From assembly GCA_937958265.1 (NCBI GenBank), contig CALGNX010000001.1:310001-374000 (forward strand): DNA of 64,000 nt, read 5' to 3'. This DNA comes from an uncultured Algibacter sp. (GTDB lineage Bacteria; Bacteroidota; Bacteroidia; Flavobacteriales; Flavobacteriaceae). Below are positions 3,114 through 64,000 of this stretch, in pieces (within the stretch, counting starts at the first letter, position 1; each line of letters opens with the position of its first letter). The translations under genes were made by a program, and so were the position numbers. Below the pieces are notes generated by a model. It had not been told where the DNA came from and ran no database searches. It saw only the letters and a list, made by a program, of their open reading frames with translations.

Positions 3114-3710
3114 TTAGTTTTGGCTCTGAATTTTCTTATCTATCGCTTTTAATACGTTTAATACTTGCGTTTTAGTGTTAACCATATCAATATTTTCAAT
3201 TACAAAATGAGATTCTTTTATCTTTTCTTCATCTGTCCATTGATTTTTCATAATGGCTTCAATTTTTTCTTTTGAAGTGGAATCACGTTTAAGTAAACGT
3301 TCAATTCTAATATCTAGAGGTGCAATTACTGTAATTATAAAATCACAGGTTTTATCTCCACCGTTTTCAAAAAGTATGGCAACTTCTTTTATAACATAAG
3401 CGGTGTTTTGCTTTGCAACCCATTTTTCAAAATGCTTAGCAACTTCAGGATGTATTATAGCATTCATTTTTTTAAGATAATCTTTATCACTAAAAATAAT
3501 ATTTGCTATAAATGGTCTGTTTAATGCGCCATTAAAATATGCGTTTTCACCAAAAAGGTCAACAAGTTTTTTTTTTATGACTTTTGATTTATGCATTAAA
3601 TGCTTTGCTTCATCGTCTGCTATATAAACGGGTACGCCCAATTTAGAAAACGCCTTCGCAACTGTTGTTTTCCCGCTTCCTATACCGCCTGTTAATCCTA
3701 TTATAATCAT
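3114..3710 (-). CDS. coaE: Dephospho-CoA kinase
   Basis: CoaE catalyses the last step of coenzyme A synthesis, ATP-dependent phosphorylation of the 3'-hydroxyl of dephospho-CoA, in the cytoplasm. The P-loop GLTGGIGSGKT is at residues 5-15, and the family's ADDEAKHL and NRPFIANIIF segments follow. The length of 198 aa is standard. It overlaps the YbbR gene by four bases (ATGA type), which implies translational coupling. The other CoA-pathway gene in this window, coaBC, is in a separate operon. Confidence 0.95.
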   Translation of the reverse strand: MIIIGLTGGIGSGKTTVAKAFSKLGVPVYIADDEAKHLMHKSKVIKKKLVDLFGENAYFNGALNRPFIANIIFSDKDYLKKMNAIIHPEVAKHFEKWVAKQNTAYVIKEVAILFENGGDKTCDFIITVIAPLDIRIERLLKRDSTSKEKIEAIMKNQWTDEEKIKESHFVIENIDMVNTKTQVLNVLKAIDKKIQSQN

Positions 3711-51526: not shown

Positions 51527-52066
51527 GTGAGCGCAAAAAAAATAGTAATTACCGGAGGACCAGGTACAGGAAAATCAACACTAATACAAAATCTTATTAC
51601 AAAAGGCCACATATGCCTAGAGGAAATTTCGCGTGAGGTTATTTTAAATGCTAAAAAGGAAGGAATCGATCAATTATTTTTAACAAATCCTTTACTATTT
51701 AGCGAGCTCATTCTAAAAGGTAGGCAACAACAGTTTATAGCAGCAGATGCCTATAAAGATACACCTGTTTTTTTTGATAGAGGCGTACACGATGTACTAG
51801 CATACATGGAATATATTGGCGATAACTACCCAGAAAATTTTGTAGAAGCTTGTAAAAATTCTTCTTATAATTTTGTATTTATTTTAAAACCATGGGAAGC
51901 TATTTACACCAGCGATAACGAACGTTACGAAAGTTTTGAGCAAGCTCTTAAAATACACGATCACTTGGTTAAAACCTACAGCGCATATAATTACAATTTA
52001 GTAGACGTTCCTTTTGGAACAGTAGAAGAACGCACAAATTTTATTTTAAAAACACTAAGCCTTTAA
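51527..52066 (+). CDS. Small P-loop ATPase
   Basis: The 179-residue protein has Walker A ITGGPGTGKSTLI at the N-terminus, a ThiS-like core (LEEISREVI), and VFFDRGVHDVLAYMEYIG. It resembles the AAA_28 family found beside recQ in flavobacteria. The start is GTG at 51527. It ends one base before recQ, so they are probably co-transcribed. The substrate is unknown. Confidence 0.85.
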   Translation: MSAKKIVITGGPGTGKSTLIQNLITKGHICLEEISREVILNAKKEGIDQLFLTNPLLFSELILKGRQQQFIAADAYKDTPVFFDRGVHDVLAYMEYIGDNYPENFVEACKNSSYNFVFILKPWEAIYTSDNERYESFEQALKIHDHLVKTYSAYNYNLVDVPFGTVEERTNFILKTLSL

Positions 52067-52067
52067 T

Positions 52068-53972
52068 ATGGAACATCCCATTAACATATTAGAACGTTAT
52101 TGGAATTTCACTAGTTTTAGACCTGGGCAGGAAACCATTATTAATGCTGTAATTAAAGGTGAAGACACCTTTGTTTTATTACCCACTGGGGGTGGTAAAT
52201 CGCTCTGTTTCCAAATTCCTGCACTAGCAAAAAAAGGAATTTGCGTTGTAGTATCTCCGCTAATTGCACTTATGAAAGACCAGGTACAAGCCTTAAATAA
52301 TAAAGGTATAAAAGCCATGGCTATTACAAGCGGTATAAGCTATAATGAGCTAGACACGTTATTGGATAATTGTATTTATGGAAATTATAAATTTCTATAC
52401 CTCTCGCCAGAACGTTTGCAGCAGGAATTAGTACAGAGCCGTATTAAACAAATGCATGTAAACCTTATTGCTGTAGATGAAGCTCACTGTATTTCACAAT
52501 GGGGTAGCGATTTTCGTCCGGCTTATAAAAACATAACGCTATTAAGGCAACTACACCCTTCTGTTAATGTTGTAGCACTTACAGCTTCGGCCAAACCAGA
52601 TGTGGTACAAGATATTATTAAGGAGTTAGATTTTATAGATGCTAAAATTTTTAAGCAATCGTTTGTAAGGCCCAATTTGGCCTACATGGTATTTCATGAA
52701 AATGACAAATACTACAAGCTTGAAATGATTTTAAAAAAAAATCCAAAATCCTCTATAGTATATGTTAGAAATAGAAAACTAACCATAGAATTATCGGCAT
52801 TTTTAAACTCTAAAAAAATTACAGCAACATATTACCATGGCGGACTGCCAAATATTGACAAAGATAAAAATATGACAGCTTGGCTAAATAACCAAAAACA
52901 GGTTATGGTAGCCACAAATGCCTTTGGAATGGGTATTGATAAACCCGATGTAAAAACGGTTATACACATGGCCTTGCCAGAAAGTATTGAAAGCTATTTT
53001 CAAGAAGCTGGTCGAGTGGGCAGAAACGGCGAAAAAGCCTTTGCGGTAATACTAAAGAATAACAGTGACGAAACATTAATTAAAAATCAATTTCTTAATG
53101 TTTTACCTACCGTAGATCTTGTAAAGCAGGTATACAGAAAATTATGCAACTACTTTCAAATATCATACAGCGAAGGTGCATATGAAACCTTTGATTTTGA
53201 TTTTAATACCTTTTGTAAAACCTACAGCTTCCCTTCTATTTTGTGTTATAACGCATTACTCATTCTGGATAGAACTAGCGTTATTACACTCTCAAAACAA
53301 TTTAAAAACAATGTTACTGTTCAATTCATTATATCTAATAAATCGCTTTTTAATTATTTAGAAACTCATAAAAACCAAAATATTATTGTAAAATCAATTT
53401 TGAGACTTTATGGTGGTGTTTTTGATCATGTTACTAAAATTGATTTAGATAAAATACATAAAAAAGCAGGTGTTACAGAAGTGGTTTTAATCCAAGCCTT
53501 AAAACAATTGGAAGAGCATGATATTATCACTTTAAATTTAGCAAAAACCGACGCGCAAATAACATTTATAGAACCTCGAGAAGACGACAAAACTATAAAC
53601 AGAATTGCAAAAACAATAAAACAGCAAAACGCCCTAAAACAATCGCAGGTAAAGGCTATGCTCGATTATGTTAAAAATGATACGGTTTGTAAAAGTGAAC
53701 AACTACTCGCCTATTTTGGAGAAAAAGAAACAGCACCTTGTGGCTTTTGCTCTGTTTGTTTACAAATTAAGAACACAAAAAAACCAGAAAATCTTAAATT
53801 ACTTAAAAATCAAATTATAGAATTATTAGAAAATGGCGCCCAACCCTCTAGAGCATTATTACAGCATTTAAATTGTGACGAAAATGCGCTTAAAAACATC
53901 TTAAAATTACTTCTAGAACATAACATTATATGTCTTACAGCAAATAATACGTATAAATTAAGTCACTTATAA
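52068..53972 (+). CDS. recQ: ATP-dependent DNA helicase RecQ
   Basis: RecQ unwinds DNA in recombination and repair. The 634-residue protein has the SF2 motor with Walker A LLPTGGGKSLCFQIPAL, DEAH box AVDEAHCISQWGSDFRPAY, and motif VI EAGRVGRNGEKA, then the four-Cys zinc site (CKSEQ...CGFCSVC) and a winged-helix domain. No HRDC domain is present; that is common in this phylum. Confidence 0.93.
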   Translation: MEHPINILERYWNFTSFRPGQETIINAVIKGEDTFVLLPTGGGKSLCFQIPALAKKGICVVVSPLIALMKDQVQALNNKGIKAMAITSGISYNELDTLLDNCIYGNYKFLYLSPERLQQELVQSRIKQMHVNLIAVDEAHCISQWGSDFRPAYKNITLLRQLHPSVNVVALTASAKPDVVQDIIKELDFIDAKIFKQSFVRPNLAYMVFHENDKYYKLEMILKKNPKSSIVYVRNRKLTIELSAFLNSKKITATYYHGGLPNIDKDKNMTAWLNNQKQVMVATNAFGMGIDKPDVKTVIHMALPESIESYFQEAGRVGRNGEKAFAVILKNNSDETLIKNQFLNVLPTVDLVKQVYRKLCNYFQISYSEGAYETFDFDFNTFCKTYSFPSILCYNALLILDRTSVITLSKQFKNNVTVQFIISNKSLFNYLETHKNQNIIVKSILRLYGGVFDHVTKIDLDKIHKKAGVTEVVLIQALKQLEEHDIITLNLAKTDAQITFIEPREDDKTINRIAKTIKQQNALKQSQVKAMLDYVKNDTVCKSEQLLAYFGEKETAPCGFCSVCLQIKNTKKPENLKLLKNQIIELLENGAQPSRALLQHLNCDENALKNILKLLLEHNIICLTANNTYKLSHL

Positions 53973-62471: not shown

Positions 62472-62518
62472 TTCATAATTAGAACTGACATCTAACGGTG
62501 TTTTTAAAACTAAAGATA

Positions 62519-63604
62519 TTGGAGCACTTTGTAGTATCGGCTAGAAAATATAGGCCTCAGACATTTAAAGATGTGGTGGGGCAGCAAGCTATTACCAATA
62601 CTTTAATAAATGCTATTAAAAACAATCATTTAGCACAAGCACTATTATTTACGGGCCCTAGGGGAGTTGGCAAAACAACATGCGCACGTATTTTAGCTAA
62701 AATGATTAATAGTAATGGGTCTGAAAATGAAGAAGAAGATTTTGCTTTTAATATTTTTGAATTAGATGCTGCATCGAACAATTCTGTAGACGATATTAGA
62801 AATCTTACAGATCAAGTTAGGATTCCTCCGCAGGTTGGAAAATATAAAGTGTACATTATTGATGAGGTACACATGTTATCACAGTCTGCTTTTAATGCAT
62901 TTTTAAAAACATTAGAAGAACCACCTAAACACTGTATCTTTATTTTAGCTACTACTGAAAAGCACAAAATAATACCAACTATATTATCTAGATGTCAAAT
63001 ATTCGATTTTAAGCGAATTACAATAAAGGACGCTAAAGAATATTTAAAATATATAGCAAAAGAACAGACAATAATTGCTGAGGATGATGCATTGCATATT
63101 ATTGCCCAAAAAGCCGATGGAGCAATGCGTGATGCGCTTTCCATTTTTGATCGTGTAGTTAGCTTTTCTGGAAAAAACTTAACCAGACAAGCGGTTACCG
63201 AAAATTTAAATGTACTTGATTATGAAACGTATTTTACAAGTACAGACCTTATATTGGAAAATAAAATTCCAGAATTATTATTACAATTCAACCAAACTAT
63301 TGCTAAGGGGTTTGATGGTCATCATTTTATTATTGGCTTAGCATCTCATTTTAGAGACTTACTTGTTAGCCAAACTCCTAACACCATTAAATTACTAGAA
63401 GTTGGCGACCAAATCAAAGAAAAATATTTAGAGCAATCTCAAAAAGCTAGTCAAAATTTTTTAATAGAAGGTATTAGTCTGGCTAACGATTGTGATTTAA
63501 AATATAAAGCGAGTAAAAACCAGCGACTGCTAATCGAGCTAACCTTAATGCAACTTGCGTCCATTACTCACAATGGAGAAAAAAAAAAAGTAAACACTAT
63601 ATAA
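62519..63604 (+). CDS. dnaX: DNA polymerase III gamma subunit (dnaX, short product)
   Basis: DnaX is the clamp-loader motor. The frame starts at TTG 62519 (MEHFVVSARKYRPQTFKDVVGQ), the usual flavobacterial N-terminus, not at GTG 62498. Walker A GPRGVGKTTCARILA, Walker B IIDEVHMLS and the SRC box (ILSRCQ) are present, but the usual zinc-finger Cys cluster between Walker A and B is missing: FAFNIFELDAAS follows the MINSNGSENEEED stretch. The in-frame product ends EKKKVNTI after a run of eleven A, 361 aa; longer DnaX needs a -1 shift. Confidence 0.9.
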   Translation: MEHFVVSARKYRPQTFKDVVGQQAITNTLINAIKNNHLAQALLFTGPRGVGKTTCARILAKMINSNGSENEEEDFAFNIFELDAASNNSVDDIRNLTDQVRIPPQVGKYKVYIIDEVHMLSQSAFNAFLKTLEEPPKHCIFILATTEKHKIIPTILSRCQIFDFKRITIKDAKEYLKYIAKEQTIIAEDDALHIIAQKADGAMRDALSIFDRVVSFSGKNLTRQAVTENLNVLDYETYFTSTDLILENKIPELLLQFNQTIAKGFDGHHFIIGLASHFRDLLVSQTPNTIKLLEVGDQIKEKYLEQSQKASQNFLIEGISLANDCDLKYKASKNQRLLIELTLMQLASITHNGEKKKVNTI

Positions 63605-64000
63605 TACCTGCATTATATTTTAAAAATAAAGGTAATACAACTACAGCAGTAAATTTACCCAAGAGTACAACAATAGCCCCGCCGGTAAACGATAAGCAAT
63701 TAAATAATAATTTAAAAAACGCATCTGGAGCAGTTAAAAAACAAGAACCAAATGCAACACCGAAAATTGTTTTAAACAAAAACTCTAAACGTAAATCAGG
63801 ACTATCTTTATCTAGCATACGCACTAAAAAAGAGCACATTATTAAGCAAATGGACGTTGTTGTTGATGAAGAAAATTTACCATCAGAGCCATTTTTAGAT
63901 AAAGATTTTTTTACCGCTTGGCACACATTTATCGAACAGCTAAGAACAAACGGTAAACATAATTTGGCATCTATTTTAGCCATTGACACTCCTAAAATTA
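63589..64000 (+). CDS. dnaX: DnaX tau C-terminal part in the -1 frame (3' cut)
   Basis: From the end of the A run, the -1 frame (AGT at 63589) is open to the window end (137 codons). It reads SKHYIIPALYFKNK, a Pro/Asn/Ser/Thr-rich linker, SKRKSGLSLSSIRTKK and KQMDVVVDEENLPSEP, then FTAWHTFIEQL, which is the pattern of the tau-specific C-terminal part in flavobacteria. It has no start of its own. It is either reached by slippage at the A run (programmed tau/gamma) or the run is one A short in this assembly. Confidence 0.85.

Follow-up and report, generated by a model that had tools for sequence, protein, structure and literature searches.

A retained A run and a drifting frame in dnaX of Flavobacteriaceae suggest programmed transcriptional slippage giving gamma and tau

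A divided dnaX gene

How is the tau subunit of DNA polymerase III made when the part of the gene that is specific to it lies out of frame with the rest? The question is raised by the last gene of the window (the whole 64,000-nucleotide stretch of DNA analysed here), dnaX, which encodes the gamma and tau subunits. Its zero-frame ORF (62519–63604, forward strand) specifies a gamma-like protein of 361 amino acids from a TTG at 62519 and matches both TIGR02397 (381.6 bits; cut-off 250) and NF011531; the open-reading-frame listing holds an earlier possible start, GTG at 62498, and the codon in the place of the apparent TTG start (62519–62521) is ATG in the five relatives displayed (L040, L041, L045, L048 and L068). 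The ORF runs into eleven consecutive A (63579–63589, forward strand), the longest A or T run within the window, at a place where nearly all family members examined have at least nine. Here the zero frame reads GGA GAA AAA AAA AAA GTA AAC ACT ATA TAA, the tail GTA AAC ACT ATA TAA (63590–63604, forward strand) ending gamma with a stop codon at 63602–63604; with A10 or A13, the frame would instead close at TAA 63591–63593.

The tau-specific C-terminal part lies in the −1 frame of the same strand, open for 137 codons from the run to the end of the window (63589–64000) and closed by a stop at 64243–64245 beyond it (C1 374243 in contig terms), 218 codons from AGT. The two ORFs are consecutive parts of the NF011531 DnaX protein, corresponding to positions 1–370 and 428–612 of 614 and scoring 623.9 and 66.3 bits respectively, each alone below the whole-protein cut-off of 685. 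The eleven A and the change of frame described in the first-pass annotation are thus confirmed, with NF011531 spanning both ORFs in order, as are the stop shortly past the run and a −1-frame tau part of at least 137 codons.

We consider it probable that dnaX in the window is expressed through programmed transcriptional slippage, giving gamma and tau. RNA polymerase, with its rA:dT hybrid inside the A run, would add or drop A's and yield mRNAs of varied run length, and a nascent-RNA hairpin (63560–63577) able to form just behind the polymerase would stimulate slippage. By ordinary translation, mRNAs with A11, A10 or A13 would then give gamma, with a stop within 15 nt of the run, and those with A12 or A9 would give tau; the long form would be the slippage-dependent product in this species, the reverse of the situation in its nine congeners. 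We infer from the comparisons below that both products are made, that the polymerase and not the ribosome slips and that the hairpin stimulates slipping; any ratio between the two products would be inferred in the same way.

Run and frame among relatives

Found in 193 of 199 family genomes, dnaX was examined in 191 of these, leaving aside the window and the congener G044, and in all nine congeners; relatives in the run and frame counts that follow are not independent samples. At 198 of 201 loci (188 of 191 in the family, all nine congeners and the window) the N-terminal domain is closed by a run of at least nine A, and this run is exactly A10 in 165 of the 201. The three family exceptions are L172, which has no run and carries GAAAAGTAAGG at the junction, L202, which meets a contig end, and L192, with A8. 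Elsewhere in the gene such runs are rare: none of the 201 loci has one in the remainder of the N-terminal coding region, and a further run of at least nine A occurs in the tau part of 5 of 197. The same control farther out is not wholly clean: one of 30 order loci and one of 70 class loci have another run upstream, and 2 of 28 and 2 of 60, respectively, have one within the tau part. The dnaX frame of L172 ends early, without a long A run, and its tau part then lies in another frame.

Beyond the family, the run stands at the junction in 29 of 30 order loci in a first set (the exception being L380) and in 17 of 22 in a further set that includes five additional family members (exceptions L417, L426, L433, L435 and L436), in 61 of 70 class loci and in 14 of 27 phylum loci, the last set including three class members (L409–L411) and leaving 13 loci without the run. 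The class set was drawn from 195 matches as the 30 top-scoring loci, 20 chosen because their open frames were short and 20 because theirs were long; its nine loci without the run are L210, L211, L219, L228, L235, L329 (cut by a contig end), L330, L352 and L359. In four of these (L210, L211, L219 and L235, the four loci examined from class family-level group f32) the dnaX frame is unbroken, and in L330 the frame ends early with neither a long A run nor a recognisable slippery motif, the tau part being in another frame. All of 80 named GTDB loci have the run; these overlap the other sets and were left out of tests.

We also considered whether a need for lysine residues might account for the run, and rejected this because all three codon phases are used, because the remaining N-terminal regions, in which AAA makes up 76% of Lys codons, hold no such run in any of the 201 loci, and because 18 of 27 GC-rich loci (gene GC >0.5; all sets but the named loci) keep it. 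The phase of the run (1/0/2) is distributed 170/13/6 in family loci with the run, 14/7/9 in the order and 37/9/15 in the class, and one phase is shared by 178 of the 197 family, genus and window loci. Taken together, these comparisons argue that the A run in dnaX is a conserved device, beyond chance.

The frame that follows the run behaves differently. Among 197 family, genus and window loci (L091 and L097, which meet contig ends, were dropped, as were L172 and L202), tau lies in the zero frame in 166, in the −1 frame, where one more A is needed, in 25, including the window, and in the +1 frame, where two more A's or one fewer are needed, in 6. The corresponding zero/−1/+1 counts are 17/10/1 of 28 in the order, 7/7/0 of 14 in the phylum and 40/18/2 of 60 in the class, where shifted loci were over-picked and their share is inflated because loci were chosen by open-frame length and not at random. 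Shifted frames occur in 12 of 78 readable named loci, with Lacinutrix mariniflava, Bizionia argentinensis, Psychroserpens damuponensis, Aurantibacter aestuarii, Cellulophaga baltica, Aquimarina latercula and a Flavobacterium sp. among the species concerned, and two Lacinutrix records (L262 and L264) have A11 and A9, respectively, between near-identical flanks. On an N-terminal-domain phylogeny built with FastTree (200 rows, of which 197 carried labels), 23 changes between zero and shifted frame were counted, of which well-supported branches force at least nine; since 94 of the 197 inner branches are weakly supported and some long branches are joined, 23 is likely an overcount. Across the dnaX genes of the family, then, the run is retained and the frame, as read from these genomes, is not.

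Whatever frame tau occupies, the other two are soon closed. In the window, stop codons begin 12 and 1 nt past the run in the two non-tau frames, and both such frames meet a stop inside the first 30 nt in 192 of the 197 loci of family, genus and window, 25 of 28 order, 55 of 60 class and 13 of 14 phylum loci, against 36%, 29%, 26% and 17%, respectively, at positions sampled from the same genes. Stops in both off-frames fit slippage in two directions, because a one-way ribosomal shift needs just one. The comparison of run length and frame in relatives that the first-pass annotation had suggested has thus given a run of at least nine A in nearly all loci and a zero-frame tau in most, congeners included, and its proposal of programmed slippage giving gamma and tau appears well supported by the comparative data.

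A hairpin before the run, and polymerase or ribosome

Directly before the run, folding predicts the hairpin UCCAUU(ACUCAC)AAUGGA (63560–63577, forward strand; 3′ arm 63572–63577), which G63578 alone separates from the first A. Folding of the last 30 nt before the run, set against shuffles of synonymous codons that follow each gene's codon use, gave −6.1 kcal/mol for the window against a null mean of −2.5 (rank 0.01), and a rank of 0.05 or below was reached by 9 of 9 congeners and 114 of 187 other family members. The signal is centred on the run: in an offset scan (60 shuffles each), 65% of 197 loci ranked at or below 0.05 exactly at the run, compared with 2–7% at seven other upstream offsets, 15% at −30, 23% at −45 and 6–11% at nine downstream offsets. 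Similarly, a stem of at least 6 bp adjoins the run in 146 of 197 loci, compared with 13.7% elsewhere in these genes. The family-wide excess of stability farther upstream, some 30–75 nt from the run, with 23% and 15% of loci at rank 0.05, is perhaps a second RNA structure.

The usual family hairpin is CUCUAUCA-NNNN-UGAUGGAG, sitting directly on the run, and that of the window retains six of its eight pairs, with one C-G to U-A double change relative to the congeners. Across 141 distinct sequences the eight consensus pairs hold in 68% of cells, against 60% in column shuffles (maximum 62%) and 38–59% for slid partners, and cells in which both sides of a pair have changed number 108; in 300 shuffles the mean was 55 and the maximum 70, and slid partners gave 50–87. 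An underpowered tree-aware covariation analysis of the pair −14/−7 pointed in the expected direction, with 3.7 of 7 independent pairs changing the same way and 0.0 the opposite way (median p 0.125). The stem is rarer in shifted loci (17 of 31) than in zero-frame loci (129 of 166). We claim the hairpin for Flavobacteriaceae alone because signals beyond the family are weak: stems of at least 6 bp occur at the run and elsewhere at 0.18 versus 0.13 in the order, 0.23 versus 0.15 in the class and 0.14 versus 0.09 in the phylum, with 21% of order and 20% of class loci at fold rank 0.05 at the run.

The chief alternative attributes tau to ribosomes that make a programmed −1 frameshift at the A run (A_AAA_AAA), the route known from E. 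coli dnaX but with the product roles reversed, and several observations speak for it. Of the 31 shifted loci, 25, the window among them, have tau in the −1 frame, and the tRNA-Lys genes found are both UUU (among 30 of 34 tRNA matches examined), a state resembling that of E. coli, where Lys codons can let ribosomes slip, and one that counts against the polymerase reading. Yet the in-phase codons of the window are AAA AAA AAA GTA and not A_AAA_AAG; the 71 nt downstream of its run show no structure beyond shuffles (z −0.21), in keeping with the 6–11% of family loci at downstream offsets, and the 101-nt fold around the run is no more than mildly stable (z −1.74). Moreover, six of the 31 shifted loci have tau in the +1 frame, out of reach of a −1 shift, and closure of both off-frames by stops is something that a one-way shift does without. 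The first-pass annotation had also drawn attention to the GGAG that precedes the run, and it is indeed present and common in the family (106 of 189 family loci with the run and 9 of 9 congeners); as a Shine-Dalgarno-type stimulator of ribosomes it is unconvincing, for it abuts the run, overlaps the 3′ arm of the hairpin and is rare outside the family (1 of 30 order, 1 of 61 class and 1 of 14 phylum loci). Of the two routes that the same annotation had left side by side, transcript slippage is favoured, because runs occur in any phase, stops close both off-frames, tau is sometimes in the +1 frame and a hairpin lies 5′ of the run with no hairpin signal 3′ of it; a ribosomal shift in the window we regard as unlikely.

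That a ribosomal signal does occur in dnaX of the order is indicated by L380 and L417, two loci of family group f68, because these carry the heptamer together with a hairpin. Lacking a long run at the junction (near position 2545 in L380 and 1340 in L417, in dnaX orientation), they instead have A_AAA_AAG followed by UAG and, 5–6 nt past the heptamer, a strong hairpin (14 bp, −26.5 kcal/mol and z −5.6 in L380; −20.3 kcal/mol in L417) and an open −1 frame that carries tau. The signal is of the same type as that of E. coli dnaX, with product roles reversed. Six other f68 loci examined (L375, L377, L378, L379, L383 and L425) have A10 and zero-frame tau. In L380 and L417 ribosomal frameshifting appears to have taken the place of polymerase slippage, which suggests that the need for two dnaX products outlasts the means of making them.

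Polymerase slippage at such a junction has an established precedent in the A9 run of Thermus thermophilus dnaX (Larsen 2000, as related in PMC5009743 and PMC1088944), which the window resembles in having at least nine A at the gamma/tau junction (A11 in the window), stops in both off-frames and two expected products. Unlike Thermus, where tau is the zero-frame product, the window has gamma in the zero frame; an abutting 5′ hairpin is seen in the window and its family. PMC6260861 reports that the Thermus run slips in both directions in E. coli, mainly by multiple insertions, and cites an A11 run placed in E. coli lacZ and, in Shigella spa13, an A10 run as behaving similarly. In its dnaX section, Antonov et al. 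2013 (PMC3711429) describes two-ORF dnaX with recoded tau in 17 genes of 12 genera, with 10 A in nine of the 17, proposes slippage, and names Chlorobium and Chloroherpeton (7–9 A). The window shares with these genes the adjacent ORFs, a DNA-level −1 transition at a poly-A site and a tau that needs recoding, and differs in its A11; the hairpin and the within-family flips are absent from that section. For the hairpin the nearest parallel is a Roseiflexus IS transposase (Penno 2015), for which a passage of PMC5009743 relates that a 5′-adjacent nascent RNA stem-loop was reported to stimulate polymerase slippage: the window (at the fold rank given above) and the family likewise have a hairpin directly 5′ of the slippery run, but the Roseiflexus element, as described there, slips on T5C5 by one-base deletion only and in a transposase, whereas the window has an A run on which both directions are possible.

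With E. coli dnaX the window shares the gene, the product pair and an A-rich shift site. It differs in lacking an in-phase A_AAA_AAG (GAA AAA AAA AAA GTA) and in the reversed product roles, and neither the window nor the family has the downstream stem-loop signal. The E. coli gene has an internal Shine-Dalgarno about 10 nt upstream of the shift site, and the window has no such spaced element. Among the titles and abstract openings of the openly available papers searched, none dealt with slippage of dnaX in Bacteroidia or with a hairpin placed 5′ of the dnaX run, and PMC3711429 alone brought dnaX, Bacteroidetes and slippage together, Bacteroidetes figuring, in the part of it concerned, as a genome-count row. 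What is known is the gene and the slippage trick; what is added here is the wide retention of the run, the repeated frame flips and the 5′ hairpin.

The frame change in the window and its meaning

In all nine congeners tau is in the zero frame and the run is A10, which most simply places the frame change on the window's own lineage. The other possibility is a homopolymer miscall, in which case the true run would be A12, tau would be read in the zero frame, like that of the nine congeners, and gamma would be the slippage product. An A12 would match the congeners' peptide length, and the assembly is a 2.89-Mb draft in 31 contigs; its completeness, however, is 99.83%, shifted frames occur in 31 of 197 loci, and two loci of other genera (L123 and L177) have the same A11-GTA layout. 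Nor is the window's run merely a length slip of the congeners' form, because the flank has changed too, from A10-TAGC to A11-GT. A miscall is quite unlikely, and a miscalled A12 would merely swap the default product. For the same reason the refutation that the first-pass annotation attached to a run of 12 A does not hold: tau would then be the default product, as in most relatives, and slippage would not be refuted.

Least probable by far is a true, unprogrammed frameshift mutation leaving gamma alone to be made and the tau part to decay, a reading for which tau is out of frame in the DNA and somewhat less constrained in the window (pN/pS 0.31) than among the congeners (0.23), but which is unsupported given a tau part stop-free over 217 codons, a tau that is expected to be needed in Pol III holoenzymes and a divergence that is not particular to tau, because the N-domain of the species is also more diverged. 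In figures, identity between the window and its congeners is 0.66 in the tau part, against 0.78 among the congeners, and 0.91 against 0.96 in the N-domain, where pN/pS is 0.09 against 0.05. The tau part of the window's dnaX is, on this pattern of substitution, under purifying selection, and tau is probably in use in the species.

If programmed slippage in the window and its relatives is true, recoding would be the ordinary route of expression of an essential replication gene in a large bacterial group, and many apparent dnaX frameshifts in databases would be function and not errors. There would also be a natural series of genes yielding the same product pair, with either tau or gamma encoded in the zero frame, through what looks like polymerase slippage in some and a ribosomal shift in others, and with or without a hairpin; whether slippage on an A run is driven by a nascent-RNA hairpin could be tested directly in dnaX. 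A bolder view, which we hold to be evenly balanced between right and wrong, is that dnaX of the Bacteroidia is indifferent to frame: at a long A run, which in Flavobacteriaceae is often preceded by a hairpin resembling that of a terminator, slippage of RNA polymerase would be so strong that any run length in the DNA gives gamma and tau, the frame would be nearly free to drift, the encoded default product would flip between lineages and a ribosomal signal could replace a lost run, as in L380 and L417.

Two other runs in the window lie inside genes. At 3567–3576 a sense A10 falls within an intact-looking gene for CoaE, dephospho-CoA kinase (minus-strand ORF, 3114–3710), where slippage might be expected, and at 52733–52741 an A9 lies inside the open frame of a RecQ-like helicase (52059–53969, forward strand).
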